A DNA stretch of 7,031 nucleotides, from the NCBI GenBank assembly GCA_016188625.1, contig JACPHL010000189.1, positions 1 to 7,031 on the forward strand, read 5' to 3'. The notes beneath the pieces are model-generated. The model saw only the letters and a list, made by a program, of their open reading frames with translations. It was not told where the DNA came from and did not search any database. Source of the stretch: Candidatus Rokuibacteriota bacterium (GTDB taxonomy: Bacteria; Methylomirabilota; Methylomirabilia; Rokubacteriales; JACPHL01). Every line of letters begins with the position of its first letter. Position 1 is the first letter of the stretch. Positions 141 to 6,912 of this stretch are shown in pieces. Made by a program: the position numbers and the translations under genes.

Positions 141-1307
141 CTAGGCATCCGTGCCGTAAAGGACGACGACGTGCTCGCCCATCCCGCTGTTGTTGTGGGT
201 GAGCCCGACCCTCGCCCCCGGGACCTGGCGCGGCCCCGCCTCGCCCCGGAGCTGCCAGAAGACCTCGGCGGCCTGCGCCGTCCCGGTCGCCCCCAGCGGG
301 TGGCCGCAGCCGATCAGCCCGCCCCGCGGGTTGACCACGACCTTGCCGCCGTAGTCGGCGAGCCCCTTCTCGACGAAGCGCCCGCCCTCGCCCTTTCCGC
401 AGAACCCCAGCTCCTCGTACGCGATGATCTCGGCGATGGCGAAGCAGTCGTGGACCTCGGCAAGGTCCATGTCGTCCGGCCCGAGCCCTGCCATCCCGTA
501 GGCGTGCTCGGCCGCGCGCCGGAGCGCGGGCCAGTGGGCGTAGTCGGGGTGGAGGGAGGTGAGGGTGAAGCCGTCCACGGCCTGGCCGGTCCCGAGGATG
601 AAGACCGGCCGATCGGTCAGGTCGCGCGCCCGCTCCTCCGAGGCGAGGATCACGGCCGCGGCCCCGTCGGTGATCGGCGAGCACATGAAAAGGCGGAAGG
701 GGGTCGAGATCATCCGCGAGCAGAGGACCTGCTCGAGGGTCGCCCCCTTCTGGAAGTGGGCGTAGGGGTTCTTCGCCGCGTGGTTATGGTTCTTGACGCT
801 CACCAGCGCCATCTGCTCCTCGGTGGTCCCGTAGCGGGCCATGTGGGCCTGGGCGGCCAGGGCGAAGGAGGGCGGCGCCGTGAGCCCGTAGGCCGCCTCC
901 CACTCCCGGTCCACGCCGGTCCCCATGTTGAGGATCGCCTCCTCGCCCGCGGGGGTGTTGAGCTTCTCGACCCCGAGAACCATCACGAGGTCGGCGAGCC
1001 CGGCCGCGATGAAGGCGTAGGCGTAGCGGATCCCCACGGTCCCGGAGGCGCACATGTGCTCGGTGCGGGCCGAGAGGCGGTCGGGCCGGATCCCGAGCGC
1101 CTCGGCGGCCAGGGGGGCGAGGTGACTCTGAAACGCGGTCCGCTCCGGCATCACCGAGCCGACCACCAGGCCCTGGAGGTCCCTCGGCTTGACCGTGGGG
1201 ACCGAGTCGAAGCAGGCCTTCCCCGCCTCCCAGATCAGGTCGCGGAGCGTGGCCTTCCGCACCCCGAACCTGGAGACCCCCGCCCCGACCAGCGTGACCC
1301 TACGCAT
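141..1307 (-). CDS. SCP2-type thiolase (acetyl-CoA acyltransferase-like)
   Basis: This 388-residue protein is a likely 3-ketoacyl-CoA thiolase, cleaving 3-ketoacyl-CoA with CoA to acetyl-CoA and a shortened acyl-CoA, or running in reverse. The nucleophilic Cys86 sits in HMCASGT. HDCFA (286-290) replaces the NEAFA motif of classical thiolases, and GCGHPLGATG (333-342) carries the active-site His336. Near the C-terminus THNNSGMG (370-377) stands where classical enzymes have a second catalytic Cys (C-x-G). HDCF together with HN here is typical of the SCP2/SCP-x thiolase subgroup. Length fits that family. The ATG start is supported by AGGGAG (1315-1320) seven bases upstream. It is the last gene of the leftward operon, 67 bases after the SDR. 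Many relatives work with a DUF35 OB-fold partner, and none is visible here. Substrate is unknown; some SCP2-like thiolases are not degradative. Confidence 0.88.
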   Translation of the reverse strand: MRRVTLVGAGVSRFGVRKATLRDLIWEAGKACFDSVPTVKPRDLQGLVVGSVMPERTAFQSHLAPLAAEALGIRPDRLSARTEHMCASGTVGIRYAYAFIAAGLADLVMVLGVEKLNTPAGEEAILNMGTGVDREWEAAYGLTAPPSFALAAQAHMARYGTTEEQMALVSVKNHNHAAKNPYAHFQKGATLEQVLCSRMISTPFRLFMCSPITDGAAAVILASEERARDLTDRPVFILGTGQAVDGFTLTSLHPDYAHWPALRRAAEHAYGMAGLGPDDMDLAEVHDCFAIAEIIAYEELGFCGKGEGGRFVEKGLADYGGKVVVNPRGGLIGCGHPLGATGTAQAAEVFWQLRGEAGPRQVPGARVGLTHNNSGMGEHVVVLYGTDA

Positions 1308-1374: not shown

Positions 1375-2118
1375 CTAAATCCCCACGGTCAGGCCGCCGT
1401 CGATGAAGATCACCTGCCCCGTAATATACCCCGCCTCCTCCGAGGCGAGGAAACAGTGCAGGGCGGCGACCTCGTCAGGGCTCGCGAGCCGCGCCGCCGG
1501 GATCCGGGCGACGATCTTCTCCCGGACCTGATCGGGGACCGCGGCCAGCATCGGGGTCAGGGTCGCCCCGGGCGCGACGGCGTTCACGGTCACCCCGTAG
1601 CGGGCATACTCGAGGGCCAGGGTGCGGGTGAGCCCGATCACCCCGGCCTTGGAGGCCGCGTAGTTGGCCTGGCCGATGTTCCCGAGCGCCCCGACCGAGG
1701 CGGTGTTGACGACCCGCCCCCACCCCCGCTCCCGCATCCCGGGGAGGACGGCCCTGGCGCAGAGGAAGGCCCCCTTCAGGTTCACGGCCAGGACCTCGTC
1801 CCACTGCTCCTCGGTCATCTTGGCGAGCATGGCGTCCCGGGTGATCCCGGCGTTATTGACCAGGACGTCCACCCGCCCCCACTCCTCCAAGACCCGCCGC
1901 ACCGCCGAGTCGACCTCGGCCGCCCGGGCGACGTCCGCCTCCACGGCGATCGCCCGGCCGCCGTCCGCCAGGATCCCCTCCGCCACCCGCTTGGCGCGGG
2001 ACGCCTCGGCGTCGTTCACCGCCACCCGCGCCCCCTCCCGGGCGAAGCGCCGGGCGGTCGCCTCGCCGATCCCGCTCCCGGCCCCGGTGATCAGCGCGAC
2101 CCGCTCCGCGAGCCTCAC
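1375..2118 (-). CDS. FabG-like SDR, 3-hydroxyacyl-CoA/ACP dehydrogenase
   Basis: This 247-residue classical short-chain dehydrogenase/reductase shows the cofactor motif TGAGSGIG (11-18), NNAG (88-91), the structural Asn113 in VNLKG, and the catalytic set Ser141, Tyr153 and Lys157 (YAASK). An acidic residue at the end of the second strand (VAVND, Asp36) usually favours NAD over NADP, which would suit oxidation of 3-hydroxyacyl-CoA more than fatty-acid synthesis. The frame stays open far upstream, but the real start is GTG at 2118. It overlaps the stop of the MaoC gene in GTGA and has GGGGAG eight bases upstream. That 4-base overlap implies translational coupling. FabG-type enzymes act on (R)-3-hydroxyacyl substrates, matching the (R)-specific hydratase type before it. 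The substrate cannot be read from sequence; a reductive role remains possible. Confidence 0.9.
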   Translation of the reverse strand: MRLAERVALITGAGSGIGEATARRFAREGARVAVNDAEASRAKRVAEGILADGGRAIAVEADVARAAEVDSAVRRVLEEWGRVDVLVNNAGITRDAMLAKMTEEQWDEVLAVNLKGAFLCARAVLPGMRERGWGRVVNTASVGALGNIGQANYAASKAGVIGLTRTLALEYARYGVTVNAVAPGATLTPMLAAVPDQVREKIVARIPAARLASPDEVAALHCFLASEEAGYITGQVIFIDGGLTVGI

Positions 2119-2582
2119 GCCGCCTGCTCCCCCCGCGCGAGGAGGAGCGTCCACTCGGCCTCCAGCACCCGCTCCTCCCGCTGGTTCAGCACCGCCACCG
2201 AGAAGACCACGGTCCCCCGGTCCGGCTTGGCCGACTCTTTCCGCTCCTTCACGGTCAGCTCGGTGTGAATGGTGTCGCCGTGGCGGACCGCCCCGCTGAA
2301 GCGGATCCGGTCCATCCCCAGGAGGGCCAGGGTCGTCCCCTCGAAGATCCCGAGCTGGTTGGCCTGGCCGGTGGCGATGGCCAGGGTCAGCGTCCCGTGG
2401 GCGATCCGCCCCTTGAGCGGGGTCCGCCGCGCCGTCTCCTCGTCCACGTGGAGGGGGTTGTAGTCCCCCGAGAGCCCGGCGAAGAGGGAGACGTCCCCCT
2501 CGGTGATGGTCCGGGCGGCGGTGGTGAAGGTCTCCCCGACGTCGAACTCCTCGAAGAAGCGGCCGCGCGGCGTCCAGGGCAT
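2115..2582 (-). CDS. MaoC family (R)-specific enoyl-CoA hydratase
   Basis: This 155-residue single hot-dog domain protein carries the hydratase-2 signature FAGLSGDYNPLHVDEETA (34-51), with the expected catalytic Asp40 and His45. Length equals that of PhaJ-like single-domain hydratases. The family reversibly hydrates trans-2-enoyl-CoA to (R)-3-hydroxyacyl-CoA. The ATG start is preceded by AGGAG with a 5-base spacer. This Shine-Dalgarno overlaps the TAG stop of the acyl-CoA dehydrogenase, only 8 bases away, so the two are tightly linked in translation. The 3' end overlaps the SDR start by four bases. Its place between a dehydrogenase and an SDR supports a beta-oxidation-like second step. Chain-length or ring preference is not predictable. 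The family also includes dehydratases acting on branched or mesaconyl-type CoA esters. Confidence 0.9.
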   Translation of the reverse strand: MPWTPRGRFFEEFDVGETFTTAARTITEGDVSLFAGLSGDYNPLHVDEETARRTPLKGRIAHGTLTLAIATGQANQLGIFEGTTLALLGMDRIRFSGAVRHGDTIHTELTVKERKESAKPDRGTVVFSVAVLNQREERVLEAEWTLLLARGEQAA

Positions 2583-2590
2583 GGCGACTC

Positions 2591-3751
2591 CTAGGCTGAC
2601 CCGAGGATCGGCGGGCGATCCAGGTCCCGGCCGATGATGAGACGGAGGATCTCCGAGGTCCCGCCCCCCAGGAGGAGGAAGCGGGCGTCACGGAAGTAGC
2701 GCTGGACCGGGTACTCCATGGCGAAGCCGTAGCTGGCGTAGATCCGGGAGGCCTCGTCCGCGATGGTGTTGGCCGCCTCGGAGGCGACCAGCTTGGCCAT
2801 CGCCGCCTCGCGGGTGGCCGGGCGCCCCTGGTCGAGGCACCAGGCGGCGTGGTAGACCAGGAGGGTCGAGGTGTGGAGCAGCGTCAGCATGTCGGCGAGC
2901 TTGAAGGCGATCGCCTGGTGCTGCCCGATCGGCTTGCCGAAGGCGACGCGCTCCCGCGAGTACCGGAGCGCCGCCTCGTAGGCGGCGCGCCCGACCCCGA
3001 GGGAGAGGGCCCCGGTCATCACCCGGATCTCTGAGAGGATCGTCCCTACCTTCTCGACGCCCCCGCCCTCGCCGCCCAGGAGGTGCCCCGGCGGGACCTG
3101 GACGTCCTCCAGGTGGACCTCGCCGGTCTCCGAGCCTCGGATCCCGAGCTTCTCGATCCGCTTCCCCAGGGTGACCCCCGGCATCTCGCGGTCCACGAGG
3201 AAGAGGGCGATCGACTCCATCCCCCGCTCCTTCGAGGTCTTGGCGCAGACGGTCAGGAAGTCCGCCACGGGGGCCGAGGTGACCCAGGTCTTGGTCCCGC
3301 GCAGGACGTAGCCATCGCCCGCCCGCTCGGCAAAGGTGCTGATGGCCGCCACGTCGGACCCGGCCCCGGGCTCGGTGAGGGCGAAGGTCCCGATCTTCTC
3401 CCCCCGGAGGGCGGGGACCAGGTAGCGCCGGCGCAGCTCCTCCGAGCCGTACTTGAAGACGAAGTGGGTCCCCATGAGGGACTGCATCGCCCAGGCCGCC
3501 GCGATGGCGAGGGAGCCCCGCGCCAGTTCCTCAGAGGCCAGGCAGTAGGTGACCATGTCGGCGCCGACGCCGCCGAAGGCCTCCGGGTAGCGGAGGCCGA
3601 AGTAGCCGAGCTCGCCGAGCCGGCGGAAGACGGCCAGGGGGAACTCGCCGCGGCCGTCCACGCCCTCGGCGATGGGGAGGATCTCGGCCTCCACGAACCC
3701 GGCGACCGCGCGCCGGAAGGCTTCCTGCTCCTCGGTGAGGCGGAAGTCCAC
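2591..3751 (-). CDS. Acyl-CoA dehydrogenase with divergent active-site motifs
   Basis: This 386-residue FAD enzyme has the full family length. It would oxidise an acyl-CoA to the trans-2-enoyl-CoA and pass electrons to ETF. The N-terminal helical domain spans about 1-120. FALTEPGAGSD (123-133) is the first family signature, followed by the beta domain to about 230 and a C-terminal helical domain with RERVAFGKPIGQHQ (266-279). The usual catalytic Glu of the YEGTSEI motif is missing: the protein reads LGGGTSEI, with Gly363 at that position. Helix G carries SEIR, with Glu241 one residue off the isovaleryl/long-chain enzyme position. The FAD-contact motif QxxGG is replaced by RIYAS (336-340). It is therefore a divergent subfamily whose substrate is unclear. 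The start is GTG at 3751, with GGAGG seven bases upstream. It lies 53 bases after the TrpB2 gene. Confidence 0.88.
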   Translation of the reverse strand: MDFRLTEEQEAFRRAVAGFVEAEILPIAEGVDGRGEFPLAVFRRLGELGYFGLRYPEAFGGVGADMVTYCLASEELARGSLAIAAAWAMQSLMGTHFVFKYGSEELRRRYLVPALRGEKIGTFALTEPGAGSDVAAISTFAERAGDGYVLRGTKTWVTSAPVADFLTVCAKTSKERGMESIALFLVDREMPGVTLGKRIEKLGIRGSETGEVHLEDVQVPPGHLLGGEGGGVEKVGTILSEIRVMTGALSLGVGRAAYEAALRYSRERVAFGKPIGQHQAIAFKLADMLTLLHTSTLLVYHAAWCLDQGRPATREAAMAKLVASEAANTIADEASRIYASYGFAMEYPVQRYFRDARFLLLGGGTSEILRLIIGRDLDRPPILGSA

Positions 3752-3804: not shown

Positions 3805-5169
3805 TTACGCGGGGACCTTCGGCACTCCGGCCAGGGCCTCCCGGACCCGCTCCTGCGGGTACTCGTAGTCCTCCAGCTTCCCCGCCAGGTAGCGCTCGTA
3901 GGCCCCCAGGTCGAAGTGGCCGTGGCCGCAGAGGTTGAAGACGATCGCCTTCCGCTCCCCGGCCTCGCGGCAGCGGAGGGCCTCGTCGATGACGACCCGG
4001 ATGGCGTGGGCCGGCTCCGGGGCCGGAAGGATCCCCTCCGCCCGGGCGAAGGCGACGGCGGCCTCGAAGGTCGGGAGCTGGTGGACGGCGACCGCCTCGA
4101 TCGCCTTGGCGTCGTAGAGCGCGCAGACCAGCGGAGCCATCCCGTGGTAGCGGAGGCCGCCGGCGTGGATGGGGGCCGGGATGAAGGAGTGGCCCAGGGT
4201 GTACATCTTGATGAGCGGCGTGCTCCGGGCGGTGTCGCCGAAGTCGTAGACGTAGAGCCCCTTGGTCAGGCTCGGGGCGGCCTGGGGCTCGACCGCGATC
4301 ACCCGGAGATCCCGGGCCTTGCCGGCGAGCTTGTCGGCGAGGAAGGGGAAGGCGAAGCCGCCGAAGTTCGAGCCGCCCCCCACGCACCCGACCAGGATGT
4401 CCGGGCGCTCCTCCGCCAGCTCGAGCTGCCGCTTCGCCTCCAGGCCGACGACGGTCTGGTGCATGAGGACGTGGTTCAGGACCGAGCCGAGCGCGTACTT
4501 GGTGTCCTCGCGCTGGGCCGCGTCCTCCACCGCCTCCGAGATGGCGATCCCCAGGCTCCCCGGCGAGGCCGGGTCCTGGGCCAGCACGGCGCGCCCCGCG
4601 TGGGTGTCGGGGCTCGGGCTCGGGACCACCTGCGCCCCCCAGGTCTCCATCATGACCCGGCGGTAGGGCTTCTGCTCATAGGAGATCCGGACCATGTAGA
4701 CCTTGCACTCGAGGTCGAAGAAGCGGGCGGCCAGGGCGAGGGCCGAGCCCCACTGCCCCGCCCCGGTCTCGGTGGTCAGGCGCCGGACCCCCTCCTGGCG
4801 GTTGTAGTAGGCCTGGGCCACCGCGGTGTTCGGCTTGTGGCTCCCGGCCGGGCTCACGCCCTCCCACTTGTAGTAGATGCGGGCCGGGGTGTCGAGGGCT
4901 TGCTCCAGGCGCAGGGCCCGGTGGAGCGGGGTCGGCCGCCAGAGCCGGTAGATCTCCCGCACCGGCTCCGGGATCTCGATCCAGCGCTCCCGGCTCACCT
5001 CCTGCTTGATCAGCTCCACGGGGAAGAGCGGGGCGAGGTCCTGGGGCCCGATCGGCTGGCCGGTCCCGGGGTGGAGGACCGGGGGGAGCGGCGCGGGGAG
5101 GTCGGCCTGGATGTTGTACCAGCGAGTCGGGAGGTCCTGCTCGCCCAGGAGGAACCTGGTCTGGGGCAT
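3805..5169 (-). CDS. trpB2: Tryptophan synthase beta chain, TrpB2 type
   Basis: This 454-residue fold-type II PLP enzyme is longer than classical TrpB1 (about 400 residues) and has the TrpB2 N-terminal extension (WYNIQADLP, 17-25). Motifs run in family order: RPTPLHRA (78-85), the PLP Lys112 in [16 protein letters not shown] (134-141, with the expected catalytic Glu134), the phosphate-binding loop GGGSNFGG (264-271), [10 protein letters not shown] (335-344) and LCGHGHFD (413-420). Cys414 sits where most relatives have the Ser that contacts the PLP ring nitrogen. TrpB2 proteins make tryptophan from indole, usually without TrpA, and some prefer O-phospho-L-serine to serine. No trpA or other trp gene is in the window. 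The ATG start has GAGGAG seven bases upstream, overlapping the previous gene's stop. The upstream SerK-like gene is 11 bases away, suggesting a joint role. Confidence 0.93.
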
Positions 5170-5180
5170 CGGCGGTCTCC

Positions 5181-6041
5181 TCAGGGTCTCGCCAGGGCGA
5201 CCTCGTAGTCGGCGCGCGCGGCCGGGTCGGCGAAGAGGCCCGGCGGGATGCGGTAGCCGTCGAACTGGTAGAGGCGTTCCGGGTAGCGGCGATCGACCCG
5301 GACCCCCTCGCCCAGGAGCCTGAGGGGCCCGCCCCGCGTCGTCTCCACGATCCGCTCCACCGCCTCGCGCGGGCCGGCCAGGGCCTCGACCGGGAGCGGG
5401 ACGCCGATGACCCGGAAGGGGAGGAGGAAGCGGGTGGACTTGGGCGGGAACGGCGCGCGCCGCGACCGCGCGACGATCGCCTCCTTGGGGAGCGGCGGGA
5501 GCCGGACCAGGAGAGTCTCGGGCTGCTCGAGGTAGCGGGGCGCCTCCTCGTCATCCACGTAGGAGCGGCCGACGGCGCCGTTCCCCGTGAGGTCGCGCTC
5601 CACCTCGCGGGCGAGGTCGTACGCCGCCAGCGGGTCCAGCCCCTGGCGCCCGTAGACGCGCCCCTCGTAGTGGCAGACGAAGCCCGCGCCGGGCCCCTCG
5701 GCGAGCCCGAGCGCCCGCGAGAGGGCGGCGAAGCGGGCGCCGCTCACGCCCTCGAGGACCCGGCACCAGGTCCGGACCCGCACCCCGGGACTCTCCAGGA
5801 CGACGGTCTGGGCGAGGACCCAGCGCGCCCCCCACGTCTTCAGGAGCACCCGGACCCGGTGGTTGCCGTCCAGGACCAGGCCGGAGGCGCGGTCCACGAT
5901 GATCGGCCAGCTGAAGACGCCGGCCGCCCGGAGGAGGCGGCTCACGCGGGCCTCGCCCTCGGGGAAGGTCTCCTCGTGGAGGACCACCCCCTCGAGGGGC
6001 AGGACGGCGACGCTTCCCCGGACCTCGTGCTCGGATTCCAT
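5181..6041 (-). CDS. ParB/sulfiredoxin-fold protein, SerK/SbnI-like (possible serine kinase)
   Basis: This 286-residue protein has an N-terminal ParB/Srx-like domain (about 10-75): [11 protein letters not shown] (14-24), then PIIVDRASG (46-54) and [10 protein letters not shown] (57-66). The DGxHR box (58-62) is the nucleotide-binding motif shared by this fold and by free L-serine kinases such as archaeal SerK and staphylococcal SbnI. A further stretch, [11 protein letters not shown] (198-208), also resembles SerK-type proteins. There is no helix-turn-helix DNA-binding region as in true ParB. The C-terminal 80 residues are not recognised. The likely activity is phosphorylation of L-serine to O-phospho-L-serine; that is inferred, not shown. 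It is the first gene of the operon, 11 bases before TrpB2, an enzyme type that can use phosphoserine. The ATG at 6041 has no clear Shine-Dalgarno, but no better start was seen. It could instead be another nucleotide-binding member of the fold. Confidence 0.7.
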
Positions 6042-6176: not shown

Positions 6177-6912
6177 ATGCGGACGTACAGTTCCCGCGAG
6201 GGGATGGACGAGCGCTACTTCCAGACCGTCAGGCAGATGATGGAGAGCCAGGCCTACCGGGAGCTGGCCGCCGCCCGGCTTTTCGGCCATGGGCTCCAGT
6301 TCGTCCCCGAGCTCCGGTGGCTCGAGTACGTCGCCGAGAGCGTCCACGAGGAGGTCGAGCACCTCGAGGCCGTGACCGGGATCTACGAGCGCCTGACCGG
6401 AGAGGAGCTGCTCCCGAGGGTCCTGGCGCGCCTCGAGGAGCGGCCCGTGGGGTTCGTGGGCTCCTGGTTCGAGCTGGCCATGGCCCAGTTCCTCTTCGAC
6501 CGCGGCGGCTTCTGGCAGCTTCGGGAGTACGAGGCGTGCTCCTTTCTCCCCTACCGGGAGATCGTGGGGGATGGGCGAGCAGCTCGTGGTGGAGCTCTGC
6601 CGGAGCGGGGAGCACGAGGCGACCAAGCAGCCGTACTTCGAGAAGTGGCTGCGGGAGGGGCTCCTCTCCTTCGGCCGGCCGGGGACGGAGGGGAACCGGT
6701 ACGCCATCAGCGTGGGGATCAAGCGGCGGGATTCCGGCGAGGTGATGCAGGACTACCTGACCGACATCAAGCCGGTCGTCAAGGCCTGCGGCCTCGCCTT
6801 CCCCACCCCTGAGGCCCTGGGGCTCGAGATGCCGACCTGGATCGACTGGAGCCTCGACGGCGTCAAGCCGGCCGAGGCCGGCCGCTGGACCCCCAGGGCG
6901 GAGCGGGGCTAG
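6177..6912 (+). CDS. Ferritin-like PaaA/PaaC-family protein, interrupted by a frameshift
   Basis: Two overlapping frames together give one protein of about 244 residues: 6177-6569 supplies residues 1-131 and 6571-6912 supplies 132-244. The first frame, if unshifted, runs on to 6812 as low-complexity sequence. The join reads REIVG then MGEQLVVEL, as one helix would. The helical N-terminal half holds an ExxH metal-type motif (HEEVEHLE, Glu59 and His62). The C-terminal half has LLSFGRPG (162-169), VGIKRR (179-184) and CGLAFPTPE (204-212), resembling the FG-P, W-GIKR and LG-x-P motifs near the end of PaaA of phenylacetyl-CoA epoxidase. I cannot place all diiron ligands, so it may be a non-catalytic relative. 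A role in oxygenating an aromatic CoA ester is a family-level guess. No other paa genes are present. The ATG lacks a strong Shine-Dalgarno and sits about 10 bases after the predicted transcript start. An earlier TTG at 6150 would fall inside the promoter. Confidence 0.6.
6566..6570 (+). other. Frameshift site, G5 run with one G too many
   Basis: The run GTGGGGGATGGG contains five Gs after the T. With four Gs the reading would be GTG-GGG-ATG-GGC and the two halves of the ferritin-like gene would fuse into one open frame. This can be a sequencing or assembly error in a homopolymer, a real inactivating mutation, or, less likely, a programmed frameshift. Confidence 0.7.

Follow-up and report, generated by a model that had tools for sequence, protein, structure and literature searches.

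A predicted free serine kinase encoded directly ahead of TrpB2 suggests a local phosphoserine supply for indole salvage

Introduction

Stand-alone TrpB2 proteins are widespread beside the ordinary tryptophan synthase beta subunit TrpB1, and their role is unclear. Their reported preference is for phosphoserine, which is rarely regarded as a tryptophan precursor; dependence of TrpB2 enzymes on O-phospho-L-serine (OPS) has been reported (Busch 2014, cited in PMC11917138). Where this substrate would come from is the question raised by the locus analysed here. Outside trp operons, a neighbourhood survey of 2007 did not detect any conserved partner of trpB2 (PMC1854888). Free serine kinases have been described in archaea (PMC5120207), and SbnI is another; a recent survey of their fold calls them sporadic examples (PMC12704722). 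A serine kinase beside TrpB2 in several lineages would account for the origin of the phosphoserine. The window, 7,031 nt in length, corresponds to the whole of contig G000:C315 in a draft genome of 2.6 Mb and 84% completeness, and it contains a candidate for such a pair.

The gene cluster and its TrpB2

Six consecutive genes occupy the minus strand of the window. The first encodes a 286-aa protein (5181..6041), a predicted free serine kinase of the SbnI/SerK type according to profiles, a structural model and a residue alignment. It is followed by the genes for TrpB2 (tryptophan synthase beta-2, 454 aa; 3805..5169), an acyl-CoA dehydrogenase (2591..3751), a MaoC-type hydratase (2115..2582), a FabG-like short-chain dehydrogenase (SDR; 1375..2118) and a thiolase-family protein (141..1307). 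The original prediction had placed the first gene 11 bases ahead of trpB2 on the same strand, with the Shine-Dalgarno sequence of trpB2 overlapping its stop, and both open reading frames are indeed arranged in this way. The junction (5170..5183, minus strand) reads TGA-GGAGACCGCCG-ATG, that is TGA-GGAG-ACCGCCG-ATG, with 11 nt between the kinase gene and the ATG of TrpB2, and the TGA stop of the kinase is part of the Shine-Dalgarno sequence TGAGGAG. As GC and GC3 of the two genes agree with those of the rest of the cluster, we consider both to be real genes. Contamination of the contig was rejected, since TrpB2 and the acyl-CoA dehydrogenase have their nearest relatives among same-order genomes and the composition is uniform. 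A divergently oriented gene occupies 6177-6912 of the plus strand; its second part bears a weak resemblance to PaaA/PaaC, and a frame shift near 6565-6575 points to a broken gene or an assembly error.

The assignment of the second gene to full-length TrpB2, also part of the original prediction, was borne out by class models with curated cut-offs (TIGR01415/COG1350 and PRK12391). The protein is full length and scores 665 bits against TIGR01415 (cut-off 519; 518.85) and 739 bits against PRK12391 (cut-off 366). The PLP lysine is K112, in GSHKPN, and the TrpB2-type motif GGLRYHG carries R340 in place of the Asp of TrpB1 (Asp300), a residue difference between the two classes that has been described before (PMC1854888). 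Both K112 and R340 are invariant in the TrpB2 alignment. The gene lies outside a trp operon and TrpB1 is encoded in the same genome, which are the hallmarks of the TrpB2_o subgroup.

Fold and residues of the predicted kinase

The gene ahead of trpB2 had been described as encoding a ParB/Srx fold with the motifs DGNHR and PPKSTRF. Both motifs are present (residues 58-62 and 199-205), and the AlphaFold model (pLDDT 83, pTM 0.81) has the full-length SbnI/SerK fold, more than the ParB/Srx core: Z is 17-20 for SbnI and SerK and about 6.5 for ParB/Srx. In detail, structural comparison gave Z 20.0 over 235 residues for SbnI (5ujd) and Z 17.9 over 209 residues for SerK (5x0b), whereas sulfiredoxin and ParB reach at most 6.7 over about 85 residues. 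A comparison with the SerK and SbnI active sites had been proposed as a check, and the residues common to these two tested kinases are all present in the window protein (H22, E23, P46, D58, G59, H61, R62, L67, G71, W92, F121, T203 and R204). E23 corresponds to SerK E30 and SbnI E20, and D58 to SerK D69 and SbnI D58; the two are invariant across 84 family members. Glu20 and Asp58 of SbnI are reported to be necessary for kinase activity (Verstraete 2018, as cited in PMC9641203), and structures of SerK E30A/E30Q contain phosphoserine and AMP. By analogy, E23 and D58 of the window kinase are predicted to be catalytic. Model and alignment together place the 286-aa protein in the SbnI/SerK free-serine-kinase fold family, as a predicted kinase.

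Within this family the window protein is very divergent. Otherwise near-invariant positions are altered (G29, W45, N60, R94, K201 and G262), and in a quick kinase tree it sits on a very long branch. This tree groups it with archaeal SerK through two long branches, for which reason the grouping was not relied on. As a lone query it matched archaeal SerK weakly (E 0.003-0.01), and it scores 23.1 bits against the SerK equivalog NF053625, for which the curated cut-off is 380, so that it is a relative and not an archaeal SerK equivalog. A family profile (A3) that includes the window protein itself retrieved, among PDB sequences, SbnI at 1e-34 and SerK at 1e-18. No Pfam family was found for the protein, and the ParB domain did not match either (E 0.1). 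A chromosome-partitioning ParB was rejected on account of this missing domain and the full-length kinase match found instead.

Distribution and partners of kinase homologues

Used alone in exact 8-mer/tblastn searches, which are of limited sensitivity, the window kinase had no match in the genome scan, in plasmids or in viral contigs, and in phages partial matches alone (E 0.03). A search of 388 bacterial genomes with the same single query yielded two unambiguous relatives (E values of 1e-13 and 3e-10) that align over the entire length, including the C-terminal VRxxYxE...FD block. In their phylum the kinase gene occurs in 39 of 43 genomes, and near-identical kinase sequences suggest that it appears to be the phylum of the 'Terrabacteria group bacterium ANGP1' records. 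With the family alignment A2 as query, a further scan of genomes found 69 kinase loci in Chloroflexota, Ignavibacteriota, Eisenbacteria, Latescibacterota, Armatimonadota, Gemmatimonadota and others; as it used the patterns VLDGANR and LPTGITRH, relatives of the window type (DGNHR/PPKSTRF) may be missing from this set. Short, weak matches to the N-terminal part only (G123, G270) look like a different, shorter family. Short SerK-like proteins of about 134 aa, comprising the N-terminal half only, are also encoded in L072 (9039-9440) and L074 (1661-2062), each gene adjoining a putative pyruvoyl-dependent arginine decarboxylase gene, and these may form a separate mini-family.

CysM/CBS enzymes are adjacent in about 20 of the 69 kinase loci, and a class-V aminotransferase (SerC-like) follows the kinase in two. 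Many kinase genes of Chloroflexota stand behind a CBS-domain PLP enzyme, and one genome (G362) has the order SerC-SerA-kinase. These CysM, CBS-PLP, SerC and SerA neighbours all make or could use phosphoserine, as is the case for SbnI-SbnA and archaeal SerK. For about 40 of the 69 homologues no recognised phosphoserine partner is found next door. In the ANGP1-type phylum a CysM-type PLP gene adjoins the kinase in 26 of 30 loci, usually together with a ThiS/CysO carrier and a JAMM protease. Across L065, L066 and L076-L105 this amounts to an operon, present in nearly the whole phylum, that combines genes for ThiS/CysO, a CBS-PLP enzyme, the serine kinase, CysM and JAMM and may encode a bacterial route to cysteine via phosphoserine, complete with a serine kinase. 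Unlinked TrpB2 genes lie about 6-7 kb from a CysO-kinase-CysM operon in L070 (G312:C13), L109 and L118.

Recurrence of the kinase-TrpB2 linkage

A survey for conserved linkage between TrpB2 and the SerK-like family had been proposed together with the original prediction, and the linkage recurs in five separate lineages and in both gene orders. In the homologue scan, which was blind to neighbours, trpB2 is the immediate same-strand neighbour in 7 of the 69 kinase loci, against an estimated chance expectation of about 0.02 (taking trpB2 to occur in about 43% of genomes of about 3000 genes each). The trpB2 gene comes first in L119, L154 and L171, and the kinase gene in L135, L138, L146 and L157, the last with a junction as short as that of the window. 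When, conversely, 135 TrpB2 loci were examined for the kinase, only the window and one other locus (G100) had it, and a profile search revealed a partial kinase gene at a contig end in the sister genome of the latter (G387). The kinase-linked TrpB2s (the seven loci, the window and G100) occupy five separate places in the TrpB2 tree, amid unlinked ones, and the linked loci are likewise scattered in the quick kinase tree. The linkage is uncommon but repeated, and apparently independent.

The phylum of the window encodes TrpB2 in 50 of 95 genomes and the kinase in the window's genome only. Two near relatives, G083 and G093, share the acyl-CoA dehydrogenase gene behind trpB2, and the genes ahead of trpB2 are unrelated. 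Since the relatives lack the kinase and keep the trpB2-dehydrogenase order, the kinase gene probably entered the lineage of the window's genome, landing exactly ahead of trpB2. In many same-order relatives (L039, L042-L044, L046, L047, L058, L059 and L061) trpB2 is followed by NMT1-type ABC transporter-like genes; the substrate-binding protein was checked in L039 and the permease in L042. The kinase-trpB2 pairs of L135 and L138 are flanked by a convergent SerB-type HAD phosphatase gene, and the divergent genes at these loci resemble indolepyruvate ferredoxin oxidoreductase (TPP, Fer4 and POR domains).

Tryptophan metabolism of the genomes

In the three Anaerolineae clusters (L119, L154 and L171) the gene ahead of trpB2 encodes a tRNA-synt_1b protein, by sequence tryptophanyl-tRNA synthetase-like, giving the order trpS-trpB2-kinase. 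A TTGAC/TATAAT promoter-like element lies between trpB2 and the kinase gene, just upstream of the latter, so that these pairs are neighbours and not one tight operon. In the draft genomes of these three loci and of G100 and G387, which represent another lineage (two of the drafts 82 and 85% complete), neither trpA nor the gene for IGPS (trpC) was found, and trpA was not found in the L157 genome either. Both genes were detected in 14 of 14 control genomes, which were not matched to these drafts, and are also present in the genomes of the window, L135, L138 and L146. The genomes in which they were not found look like indole salvagers, and the combination of trpS-trpB2-kinase clusters with trpA and trpC not found favours tryptophan as the product.

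The window's own genome presents a different picture. It encodes TrpF-TrpB1-TrpA (C313) and IGPS, so that the kinase-TrpB2 pair adds to a complete pathway, and SerA together with a SerC-like aminotransferase (C338), which should already make phosphoserine. The pair was therefore rejected as the sole tryptophan or phosphoserine route of this genome. Thus, of the predicted dedicated two-gene route to tryptophan without TrpA, tryptophan as the product is favoured by the trpS clusters elsewhere, whereas "dedicated" and "without TrpA" are not supported for this genome.

Discussion

We propose that a kinase of the SbnI/SerK family supplies OPS to TrpB2 for the salvage of indole to L-tryptophan, a reading to which we assign a probability of about two in three. 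It builds on the fold and shared residues of the kinase, the close linkage of the two genes, the recurrence of this linkage in several lineages, the phosphoserine-related partners of homologues and the trpS clusters. Kinase and TrpB2 are probably translated from one transcript. From the tested homologues we infer that the kinase would phosphorylate L-serine to OPS with a nucleoside phosphate as donor, by means of E23 and D58. TrpB2, as expected for its family, would take up OPS, form the aminoacrylate and add indole as second substrate in a PLP-dependent beta-replacement, giving L-tryptophan. With the kinase encoded beside TrpB2, the supply of OPS may be local and decoupled from serA-serC flux and central serine biosynthesis, and the pair could act as an indole-salvage module alongside the ordinary TrpB1-TrpA. 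Several findings count against this proposal: TrpB1-TrpA and a serA/serC-like pair are already present in the genome, about 50 TrpB2 genes elsewhere in the phylum have no kinase, the window kinase is highly divergent, a promoter-like element separates the pair in the Anaerolineae loci, many homologues have no phosphoserine partner beside them, and the acyl-CoA genes downstream are left unaccounted for.

These same acyl-CoA dehydrogenase, MaoC, SDR and thiolase genes invite a different product. Following the same kinase step, TrpB2 could join OPS to a nucleophile other than indole, yielding another beta-substituted alanine tied to the acyl-CoA genes. The order of TrpB2 and dehydrogenase genes is retained in near relatives, and as TrpB1-TrpA is encoded elsewhere in the genome, tryptophan need not be the purpose of the pair. 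In other lineages, however, the position of trpS beside the pair and the undetected trpA and trpC point to tryptophan, and no features of a biosynthetic gene cluster were seen within the window; we regard a non-indole product as unlikely. It is also conceivable, if quite improbable, that the role of the kinase lies in general serine assimilation or in making cysteine, and that it stands ahead of trpB2 incidentally. Many homologues do accompany CysM, CBS-PLP enzymes, SerC or SerA, but the repeated linkage weakens this explanation: adjacency to TrpB2 occurs in separate lineages far above chance, and a kinase absent from relatives lies precisely ahead of trpB2, with overlapping Shine-Dalgarno and stop.

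SbnI has been described as a regulator too (PMC9641203), and CTP binding has been reported for an archaeal SerK-like domain (PMC12704722). The window protein might likewise be a nucleotide-binding regulator of its operon, as a ParB-like CTP switch or an SbnI-like heme-responsive protein, and not a kinase. The full-length match to kinases, which are its top structural matches, weakens this explanation; in addition, no Pfam ParB domain was matched, every shared kinase residue is retained, and the partner genes of the homologues encode phosphoserine enzymes, making a purely regulatory role very improbable indeed.

Returning to the supply of OPS for indole salvage, the recurrent pairing across unrelated bacterial lineages suggests a portable two-gene route from serine and indole to tryptophan. 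More generally, and as a tentative proposal to which we give slightly less than even odds, SbnI-type kinases may be portable serine-activating modules, repeatedly set beside differing OPS-using PLP enzymes; they would supply the substrate of stand-alone TrpB2, and with TrpB2 (and trpS) would complete a route from indole plus serine to tryptophan, taking the place of de novo synthesis in bacteria that lack TrpA and TrpC. This would add to the free serine kinases, so far seen in a few archaea and in siderophore/antibiotic clusters, a broad family of bacterial members with roles in the metabolism of cysteine and tryptophan. In the open-access literature that we searched, subscription papers being outside its scope, no paper on a link between serine kinases and TrpB2 was found.

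Comparison with known systems

The closest parallel is SbnI-SbnA of Staphylococcus, in staphyloferrin B synthesis. The kinase fold and catalytic residues are those of the window kinase, although the two proteins are only about 14-18% identical over the structural alignment, and in both cases the kinase is paired with a PLP beta-replacement enzyme of fold-type II. That the OPS supply duplicates what central serine synthesis provides, as it would in the window's genome, has also been noted for SbnI (PMC12414870). The window differs in having TrpB2 instead of SbnA as the partner and in lacking siderophore genes. The ADP-dependent SerK of Thermococcus kodakarensis (TK0378) has the same fold, with E30, D69, H72, R73, W102, T223 and R224 conserved, but it feeds cysteine synthesis and serine assimilation, and no trpB2 link has been described for it (PMC5120207). 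The DGxHR and PKxTR motifs of the window kinase are nearer to those of SerK than to those of the other bacterial homologues.

CysM-CysO-Mec is a cysteine synthesis system of Mycobacterium, and the ANGP1-type homologues are likewise encoded with CysM, ThiS/CysO and JAMM, an arrangement that is not that of the window. To our knowledge, the mycobacterial cluster contains no serine kinase gene. The TrpB2_o stand-alone subunits resemble the window TrpB2 in their location outside a trp operon, in the presence of TrpB1-TrpA in the genome, in their match to TIGR01415 and in their TrpB2-type residues; what sets the window TrpB2 apart from TrpB2_o in general is its kinase neighbour.
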